64,000 bases of DNA, taken from Mesonia sp. HuA40 (GTDB lineage Bacteria > Bacteroidota > Bacteroidia > Flavobacteriales > Flavobacteriaceae). The translations under genes were made by a program, and so were the position numbers. The stretch spans positions 1 through 64,000 of the forward strand of contig NZ_VRLT01000063.1 of assembly GCF_008017835.1 (NCBI RefSeq), written 5' to 3'. Under the pieces are notes generated by a model. The model was not told the DNA's origin. It saw only the letters and a list, made by a program, of their open reading frames with translations, and did no database searches. Every line of letters begins with the position of its first letter. Within the stretch, counting starts at the first letter, position 1. Shown here in pieces: positions 11,052 through 13,751 of this stretch.

Positions 11052-12566
11052 TTACTCCCCTTGTCCTAAAGAGAAACCACGCTGACCATCAAACTCATAT
11101 AGATTTTCAGTTTTAATAATATCAAAATCAGAGGCTTGTAATTCTACTAGTAAATCAATCACATCAGAATAATTTATTGATAAATACTGTGGGGTGTCAT
11201 TTTTTAATTGCACTTGTTGCTTTACAAACCTACAACGCCAATGGTCTGTACAATATGTTTCTGGAATACCGTTAGGAAAAACTTTTACTCCACGATTGGT
11301 TATCATTTTTAATTTTAAACTGTTAGATGTTGCTTTCTGCAATTGTTCTCCAATTTCTTGGGGGTTGTTACCCGCCCAATCAATAAAGACATCTACACCT
11401 ACCAGTTGTTTTTTTGCGACTTTTCTTGTGTATTCAGGAATTTGAATTTCACCCGTTCCCTCATTTAAAACGCTAACTTTTAAATGTTCAGGCTCTTGTC
11501 CCAAACGCTCAATAACTGCATCGGCAAATTCATCGGTATTTACCCGTAGGACACTGCTTTTCTCTTCATAAATATCGGGTGTATGAATACCGTCTTCAAT
11601 AGTTTTTAACCAGGCGTTCTTGAGGCTATCGGCAAGTTTTGTTTGTTTTAAATGAGCCAATAGCATTACTGCGGCATTGATAAGACCAGACGGATTGGCA
11701 ATTTTTTGCCCCGCAATATCAGGAGCCGATCCGTGAATAGCTTCAAACATGGCTACCTCCTTACCGATGTTTGCCGAACCCGCCATTCCTACAGAACCAC
11801 CAATTTCGGCTACAATATCAGAAATAATATCGCCATATAAATTAGAGGTTACAATTACGTCAAATTGTTCTGGTCTTGCAGCTACTTTGGCAGAGCCTAT
11901 ATCTATGATTTGAGTATTGCTTTCTATATCTGGATATTCATGAGCTATCTCTTTAAACACTTTATGAAACAAACCATCGGTAATTTTCATAATATTGTCT
12001 TTTACCATACAAGTTACTTTCTTGCGGTTATAAGCGCGTGCGTATTCAAAAGCATAACGAATTATTTTTTCACTACCCGGACGGGTGATTAATTTCAAAC
12101 ATTGATAAACGTCTTGGGTTTGACGATGCTCAATACCAGCGTATAAATCTTCCTCGTTTTCACGGATTACCACGATATCCATATTAGGAAAGTTGGTTTT
12201 TACGAAAGGATGTAAGGCGCTTACTGGCCGAACATTGGCAAATAATCCTAAAGATTTTCTCAAAGTTACATTTAAACTTTTATAGCCTTTGCCTTGAGGG
12301 GTAGTAATGGGTGCTTTTAAAATAATTTTATTGCGCGAAATTATTTCCCAAGCTTCTCCACTTATTCCTGCCGTATTTCCTGCTAGATAAACCTGTTCAC
12401 CCACTTCAATAGGCTCGAAACTTAAGGGCGCTCCACTTGCTTTTAATATTTTTAAGGTAGCCTTCATAATTTCTGGACCTATACCGTCTCCATAAGCTAC
12501 CGCTACCTTTGTTAGCGCCTTATCTGTTTTTTTTAAATCTTCAACCTTTGTTAACTCGTTTTCCAT
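11052..12566 (-). CDS. icd: NADP-dependent isocitrate dehydrogenase, Thermus-type long form
   Basis: This is a 504-residue member of the isocitrate/isopropylmalate dehydrogenase family. The catalytic part (about 18-350) shows AVAYGDGIGPEI, SLNVTLRKSLGLFANVRP, the substrate-binding VIRENEEDLYAGIEHRQT, NLYGDIISDIVAEIGG and EAIHGSAPDIAGQKIANPSG. A C-terminal extension of about 140 residues ends EFDGQRGFSLGQGE. It closely matches what I remember of the extra C-terminal domain of Thermus thermophilus isocitrate dehydrogenase. The reaction is oxidative decarboxylation of isocitrate to 2-oxoglutarate. Preference for NADP is inferred from that type. A second, unrelated isocitrate dehydrogenase lies at 21910. 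Upstream lie dyads and a 22-bp repeat array. Confidence 0.9.
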   Translation of the reverse strand: MENELTKVEDLKKTDKALTKVAVAYGDGIGPEIMKATLKILKASGAPLSFEPIEVGEQVYLAGNTAGISGEAWEIISRNKIILKAPITTPQGKGYKSLNVTLRKSLGLFANVRPVSALHPFVKTNFPNMDIVVIRENEEDLYAGIEHRQTQDVYQCLKLITRPGSEKIIRYAFEYARAYNRKKVTCMVKDNIMKITDGLFHKVFKEIAHEYPDIESNTQIIDIGSAKVAARPEQFDVIVTSNLYGDIISDIVAEIGGSVGMAGSANIGKEVAMFEAIHGSAPDIAGQKIANPSGLINAAVMLLAHLKQTKLADSLKNAWLKTIEDGIHTPDIYEEKSSVLRVNTDEFADAVIERLGQEPEHLKVSVLNEGTGEIQIPEYTRKVAKKQLVGVDVFIDWAGNNPQEIGEQLQKATSNSLKLKMITNRGVKVFPNGIPETYCTDHWRCRFVKQQVQLKNDTPQYLSINYSDVIDLLVELQASDFDIIKTENLYEFDGQRGFSLGQGE

Positions 12567-12598: not shown

Positions 12599-12784
12599 AA
12601 TAAAAATTACATAAGTTTTTATTTATGTTTTTAATGTTAACCATTAACAATTGTTATGTTCGTTACTTATAATATACTTGTTGTTATAAGTTTAAATTAT
12701 AGGTTTTGACTATTTGCTTTCCCTACTTTTTAAGCTAAGTAAATTCACAAAAAAATTACCAAGAATGAGGATATAAATTTTTCA

Positions 12785-12906
12785 CCGCAGTTTACCAAAA
12801 CAAACACAGCAGTTTATGATTACAAGCTCAGCAGCTTACAAACACAAGCTCAGCAGTTTGCGATTACAAACACAGCAGTTTGTAAAAAAAACACAGCAGT
12901 TTATTT
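12785..12906. repeat. Six-copy 22-bp tandem array of short dyads
   Basis: The core GCAG occurs at 12787, 12809, 12831, 12853, 12875 and 12896, a spacing of 22, 22, 22, 22 and 21 bp. Typical units read ACAAACACAGCAGTTTGT and ACAAGCTCAGCAGCTT. Most units contain a small inverted repeat around ACAGCA or CAGC. The arm pairs are AAAC/GTTT, ACAAAC/GTTTGT and AAGCT/AGCTT. One unit has AAGCT/AGTTT, which would still pair as RNA through G-U. No spacers are present and no coding is visible. Confidence 0.85.
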
Positions 12907-12939: not shown

Positions 12940-13398
12940 CTACAAATCGGTTATGAAGATGCGGTTATCGCTTAATCTATATTCGAAAACAGTTTTTAAG
13001 GCCGAGGAATAAACTTTGAAATGATCTAAACCATACAGGGGTGCATATAATCTAAATGTACAAATATCGGTAGCCGTGATATACGTCGTAGTTTTTACGT
13101 GAGAGTGCATCGCTGAGCTGATTTTTTGTTCATCAGTTTTGGGAATATCTATAGGAATAAAAGTGTTATGAAACTTCTGCCAATGACTAATCTTCTCCTC
13201 TTGATCGGCAACAAAAAGATAATCATTGCCTAATGGAATCCTATTTTCTTGGCTAGTTCCCAAGATCAAATACAAACGGTATTGAGCTTCACCTTCAAGT
13301 AATACTAAATTAGGACTGCAACCCTCGGGAATTGTAATATCTTTATGCTGAGTAAAAATTTGATTAAGAATTTTATTTTTGATATTCCACAGATTCAA
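12940..13398 (-). CDS. C-terminal part of a split secreted protein (unknown function)
   Basis: This frame encodes the last 152 residues of a protein whose first part lies at 13395-13751 in another frame. It has no ATG start: the first codon of the open frame is TTG at 13398, in the middle of continuous coding sequence. Reading upstream in the same frame gives a natural continuation (GKTYFNEELRTLSKTELNLW) back to the slippery site at 13440-13446. Joined by a -1 shift, the two parts make a 270-residue secreted protein. The sequence (PEGCSPNLVLLEGEAQYRLYL, then DYLFVADQEEKISHW) matches no family I recognise. It is either a frameshifted gene, a programmed frameshift or a sequence error. Confidence 0.6.
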   Translation of the reverse strand: MNLWNIKNKILNQIFTQHKDITIPEGCSPNLVLLEGEAQYRLYLILGTSQENRIPLGNDYLFVADQEEKISHWQKFHNTFIPIDIPKTDEQKISSAMHSHVKTTTYITATDICTFRLYAPLYGLDHFKVYSSALKTVFEYRLSDNRIFITDL

Positions 13399-13751
13399 CT
13401 CGGTTTTTGAAAGTGTTCGTAGTTCTTCGTTAAAATAGGTTTTCCCTGCCCTGCAGCCGAACTAAAACCGTATTGCGCCATAACAACTTTTTCCTGATTA
13501 TTCTCTAAAGCACTAACGTAGATACTATCGTTTTTTTCATATACCAGATATCCTCCATATTGCTCTTTTAAATGATTTTGCTGCATTAACAAATCGGTTG
13601 CCTGCCAGGCAGCCCATTCATAGGCATAAAGCTTATCGGCTTCTTGTACAATAGAATCTAATTTTTGTTGGCTAGGCAAAGATTCGGTCTGTGCGTACAT
13701 TCCGAAAGTCAAGAATATGAAAAAACTTCGTATAAAATAGGTCAAACTCAA
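13395..13751 (-). CDS. N-terminal part of a split secreted protein (unknown function)
   Basis: This is a 118-residue product with a signal peptide (MSLTYFIRSFFIFLTFGMYA, cut before Q21), so it is exported. A helical, acidic segment follows (QKLDSIVQEADKLYAYEWAA), then strand-like sequence (GGYLVYEKNDSIYVSALENN). In-frame sequence after K104 (PILTKNYEHFQKPS) looks like out-of-frame read-through before the stop at 13395. A -1 shift at GGGAAAA (13446-13440) would join it to the downstream frame. No family is recognised. It follows a 146-residue membrane protein gene by 44 nt. Confidence 0.65.
   Translation of the reverse strand: MSLTYFIRSFFIFLTFGMYAQTESLPSQQKLDSIVQEADKLYAYEWAAWQATDLLMQQNHLKEQYGGYLVYEKNDSIYVSALENNQEKVVMAQYGFSSAAGQGKPILTKNYEHFQKPS
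13440..13446 (-). other. Candidate -1 ribosomal slippery heptamer G GGA AAA
   Basis: The reverse-strand sequence GGGAAAA is positioned as X XXY YYZ relative to the upstream frame (codons 103-104 are GGA AAA). A -1 slip leads directly into the downstream frame at ACC TAT TTT. No strong downstream hairpin was seen by eye. A one-base deletion in the G or A run would look identical. Confidence 0.5.

Follow-up and report, generated by a model that had tools for sequence, protein, structure and literature searches.

What does a row of six evenly spaced dyads do in the gap between a secreted-protein gene and icd in Mesonia sp. HuA40? The row lies in the window, by which we mean the whole 64,000-nucleotide stretch analyzed here (contig NZ_VRLT01000063.1, positions 1 to 64,000), where it occupies positions 12783..12904, with no strand assigned and the consensus ACAAACMCAGCAGTTTGTNNNN. 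GCAG cores at 12787, 12809, 12831, 12853, 12875, and 12896/7 mark six units, the last of which arrives one step short of the 22-bp spacing. TRF returned a period of 22 with 5.5 copies over 12783-12903, together with a second row of 44-bp period (score 149), and identity at lag 22 was 32/40, compared to a maximum of 24/40 among 1000 dinucleotide shuffles (z 7.9). These results reproduce the core positions, the unit count, and the 22-bp tandem order of the preliminary description. A coding repeat or a CRISPR was ruled out, because the pitch of 22 cannot be divided evenly by 3 and spacers are absent. The unit, which we call type I, is an imperfect dyad, ACAAAC-N6-GTTTGT, flanking an asymmetric CAGCA core. 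Across 40 distinct units from three genomes, the mean Watson-Crick match was 0.79 at the dyad axis and ≤0.54 at the other tested axes, so that the inverted repeat originally described in the units has one clear axis.

Both flanking genes are carried on the minus strand, and their coordinates agree with the position proposed at the outset, in the 3′ flank of a frame-split secreted gene and upstream of icd. The latter encodes an NADP-dependent isocitrate dehydrogenase (11052..12566; NF006673, E 3.5e-232), and the array lies ~220-340 bp upstream of its start codon. On the other side, the array is bordered by the 3′ end of the secreted-protein gene (12940..13751), whose translations fall in two frames (13395-13751 and 12940-13398) and have no match in Pfam or NCBIfam. 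Near the break, an alignment of three relatives showed the window's genome to be one base short of a sister genome (G012). About 100 bp directly upstream of the icd start is kept in the relatives, and the stretch between the array and the promoter is not; a search for a Bacteroidetes-type icd promoter found just a −7-like TATGTTTG, in the relatives.

We compared the window's own genome (G000, an assembly of 62 contigs) with its two nearest genomes, those of the Mesonia-like sister species G001 and G012. At the icd locus (locus A), the array has 6 units in G000, 8 in G001, and 4 in G012. Absence from this locus in close relatives and a constant copy number, two of the signs by which a chance microsatellite was to be recognized, were both lacking, and the shuffles and the orthologous arrays together ruled that origin out. 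A second type-I locus, adjoining a VOC-like gene and a Flavo-1 RNA (RF01705; ~140-210 bp away), is common to all three genomes. Moreover, G001 and G012 each carry two further type-I loci directly 3′ of an HU-HIG gene and its terminator, so that the sister genomes together have four type-I loci that follow such a gene. The gene ahead of these arrays, a small one whose product has 127 aa in G012, was assigned by PF18291 (E 5.7e-26) and also by TIGR01201 to HU-HIG, a poorly studied family of HU-like DNA-binding proteins. In both sister genomes, the module of ~1.5-2 kb that holds it is duplicated; each copy has different small lipoprotein or secreted-protein genes upstream, and one copy is also preceded by a group II intron. 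Searching 84,980 species genomes for the type-I motif gave 18 stretches, of which 8, in Mesonia records, are array loci; the other 10 are scattered single matches that we take for chance. A viral origin of the arrays was rejected, as a pattern search of viral contigs found no array and no HU-HIG relative was confirmed there.

The window array shares its unit motif with the HU-HIG-adjacent arrays of G001 and G012, and its 21/22-bp tandem units exceed chance, as in the HU-HIG-linked family generally. Judged by its sequence, it is an orphan of the type-I HU-HIG-linked family. The linked HU-HIG genes lie outside the window, and the preliminary description did not see the link.

To place this link on a broader footing, we surveyed 36 HU-HIG protein clusters (80% identity) drawn from Bacteroidota, scoring a 350-bp segment as positive when its autocorrelation peaked at a lag of 21 or 22 bp (z>3). 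Lags of 21/22 came out on top downstream of the gene in 18/36 lineages, upstream in 8/36, and on either or both sides in 23/36, although the independent events are fewer, because some clusters are orthologues within one genus. In contrast, none of 34 control segments at +600..+950 downstream of HU-HIG genes was positive (Fisher p 5e-7, downstream versus far segments, downstream alone), and positive tiles of the window numbered 5/182, the array's own included (4/181 others). Thirteen of the 36 lineages failed on both sides, and a search beside Bacteroidales HU-HIG genes found no array at 22 bp. The array-adjoining genes score above the curated cut-off of the HU-HIG/HU_rel family. No earlier description of an array beside HU-HIG genes was found in a search of openly accessible literature, and a sequence search among solved structures returned no close relative of HU-HIG. 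Among 10 right-hand neighbors of HU-HIG genes tested, 6 were glycosyltransferase or nucleotide-sugar genes. In 9/36 lineages, one of them with a variant form, an exact repeat of the 13-24 nt that surround the HU stop codon lies 190-450 nt downstream of that stop, past the array and within a hairpin (G)CTCAAAAA..TTTTTGAG(C). This repeat varies from lineage to lineage and matches its own gene every time; read on the opposite strand, the hairpin resembles a terminator, as of an antisense RNA directed at the 3′ end of HU-HIG.

Between lineages, the motifs are unrelated in sequence, with the pitch constant at 21-22 bp (AAACMCAGCAGTTT, CATGCTGATGATT, TTGTACAA, AAACCTGCGCAGGTTT, CAAACGTTTG, and TTCACCCNGGGTGAA). 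The CATGCTGATGATT array, of type II, belongs to a second Mesonia HU-HIG gene, TTGTACAA lies upstream of a third, and AAACCTGCGCAGGTTT is the array motif of the HU-HIG gene in a more distant genome, G028. In two genomes, two HU-HIG paralogues have an array motif each, namely CAAACGTTTG and AAACNNACGTNNGTTT in G146, which has four paralogues, and TTCACCCNGGGTGAA and GATGCNCATC in G235; the G146 gene with the CAAACGTTTG array adjoins a Cas9-like gene. The more alike two HU-HIG proteins are, the more alike their motifs tend to be (Mantel p 0.0002), a correlation that can also stem from co-inheritance, since a gene and its neighboring array are inherited together.

Four motif families include arrays distant from the HU-HIG gene: type I of the window, TTGTACAA, type II (CATGC..ATGATT), and the G028 motif AAACCTGCGCAGGTTT. 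In G000, the TTGTACAA motif matched 26 times, compared to 0 in a reversed control, and forms four arrays, one upstream of its HU-HIG gene and three elsewhere. Among 16 Mesonia genomes, TTGTACAA arrays occur in exactly six, the same six that carry that HU-HIG type, a co-occurrence due in part to the one array that adjoins the gene. The orphan array of G028 has 4 units at an exact 22-bp pitch and adjoins uvrC. At five loci, TTGTACAA arrays are flanked by additional AGCAACTT/ACAGCAACTTTT units, 22-bp-spaced or inverted, that look like type-I units, and from this resemblance array types may mix. Because orphan arrays exist in three motif families besides that of the window, simple gene linkage cannot explain the pattern; the recurrence of matching motifs at distant sites is most simply explained by a trans-acting binder common to them.

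That binder could in principle be a protein other than HU-HIG, with the arrays serving as operators of another dimeric repressor or nucleoid protein that regulates HU-HIG genes and a few others. The TTGTACAA-type arrays upstream of HU-HIG genes do look operator-like, and several orphans, such as those at icd and uvrC, lie upstream of a gene. Most arrays, however, lie downstream of the HU-HIG gene, past its terminator, and one TTGTACAA orphan sits between convergent genes, where a promoter or UTR role would be unnatural. Furthermore, since paralogues within one genome have different motifs, one regulator shared among them is unlikely. We regard operators of this kind as distinctly improbable.

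The arrays might instead act as RNA. The preliminary description had seen the arms change together and had offered, as one of two readings, a chain of mini-hairpins, which would here lie in the 3′ UTR of the secreted gene. Folding of both strands, which it had also proposed, was indeed better than in shuffles (z −3.3 and −3.1); such an excess is uninformative for RNA, because any tandem dyad array folds well. The half-sites proved independent: when the right halves of the 40 distinct type-I units were shuffled, pairing was unchanged (Watson-Crick 0.714 versus 0.727, p 0.79), and no covariation appeared when G-U pairs were allowed as well (p 0.59) or in an alternative hairpin across the spacer (p 0.45). 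Compensatory pairing is therefore rejected for type-I units, in the core dyad as well as across the spacer, and with arms that vary independently, within and between units, the RNA reading is unsupported. In addition, RNA has no use for a strict 22-bp phase, and arrays occur on either strand relative to their neighbors as well as between the convergent genes. We consider an RNA chain very improbable. The other reading, in which a two-turn pitch lets successive dimers bind the same face of the DNA, is well supported: the 21/22-bp pitch is kept across lineages despite complete sequence turnover, which points to DNA phasing, and the arrays are tied to genes for DNA-binding proteins.

We also considered REP/BIME-like repeats, selfish or hitch-hiking elements that lack a dedicated binder and spread with or from the HU-HIG module, the orphans being scars of lost modules. 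Consistent with this, the HU module is itself duplicated (loci C/E and F/G share a block of ~1.5-2 kb), a type-II orphan is preceded by a terminator resembling that of the HU-II locus, and type-I arrays persist in a genome from whose locus C the type-I HU-HIG gene has been lost. That genome is G000, whose locus C site, beside dabA, has no type-I HU-HIG module; the type-I gene was not found elsewhere in this assembly, where fragmentation could hide a second copy, and other HU-HIG paralogues are present. Since an array may outlast its gene, an orphan does not strictly need the cognate gene in its genome. On the other hand, neither locus A nor locus B yielded an HU remnant, and a constant 21/22-bp pitch combined with complete sequence turnover is unexpected absent a binding constraint. 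The many dispersed copies per genome typical of REP elements were not seen, either: type-I loci number 2-4 per genome and are stable and orthologous between species, unlike spreading REPs. Overall, such repeats appear unlikely, although less so than the operators of another regulator.

Altogether, our data suggest that the window array is a row of phased dyad sites for an HU-HIG dimer and one of a few such sites dispersed over the chromosome, a reading to which we assign a probability of about 0.62. As far as its sequence and relatives tell, the array is probably a landing strip for HU-HIG, neither an RNA structure nor a chance microsatellite. What we infer is the identity of the binder (HU-HIG), its dimeric mode of binding, and whatever effect there may be on icd. 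An HU-HIG dimer would bind each dyad, with the dyads 22 bp, or two turns, apart, and several dimers in phase would together bend or wrap the DNA, giving rise to a local nucleoprotein structure. In the window, this structure would stand between the secreted-protein gene and the icd promoter region, where it could insulate or modulate transcription. The HU-HIG gene of each lineage would carry its own array directly after or before it, with orphans in other intergenic regions; the gene-proximal array could serve autoregulation or insulation of HU-HIG, and an orphan could nucleate a local architectural complex. Several observations count against HU-HIG as the binder: HU proteins classically have weak sequence specificity, the type-I gene is unseen in G000, the dabA site has no module, the Bacteroidales genes have no arrays, 13 of the 36 lineages were negative on both sides, and co-inheritance could yield the Mantel correlation.

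More tentatively, HU-HIG proteins may be previously unrecognized, sequence-specific, self-addressed nucleoid proteins whose lineages co-evolve with their own phased arrays, one at the gene and a few elsewhere. These could be chromosome-organizing or insulator sites marking surface-polysaccharide and other variable loci, with the Flavobacteriaceae module adding the antisense-like copy of the HU stop region; we hold this wider proposal to be possible, at somewhat less than even odds. If true, one branch of the HU superfamily has turned into site-specific architectural proteins, and HU-HIG, a family without a function, gains a testable one, which may shed light on the regulation or exchange of surface-polysaccharide loci in Bacteroidota. 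The target site of an HU-HIG protein could then be read directly from the DNA beside its gene.

Several known systems invite comparison. The family to which the array-adjoining genes belong is HU-HIG/HU_rel (PF18291, TIGR01201), and the window array itself has no such neighbor. With REP/BIME elements, the arrays share palindromic repeats dispersed in intergenic DNA; they differ in being few, fixed in helical phase, and linked to HU-HIG, and no RAYT-type transposase was noticed. R6K-type plasmid iterons are 22-bp direct repeats, and like them the arrays present tandem two-turn sites adjoining the gene of the presumed binder. This pitch and tandem layout could suggest remnants of an iteron-type replication origin. 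The arrays, however, consist of dyad units, occupy dispersed chromosomal intergenic sites conserved between species, and are linked to HU-HIG; no Rep gene or other replication gene was seen beside the examined arrays (loci A, B, and C-G, translations inspected by eye and in part against Pfam), and we find an iteron origin scarcely credible. The last comparison is with the Porphyromonas gingivalis HU protein PG0121, which is tied to the K-antigen capsule operon with its palindromic element, affects transcription of that operon, and prefers the 77-bp inverted repeat over a nonspecific 77-mer (PMC3969353). As a member of the HU family, PG0121 offers the same combination of an HU-family gene, a surface-polysaccharide locus, and a palindromic element; its element is one long inverted repeat, whereas the one described here is a 22-bp phased array.
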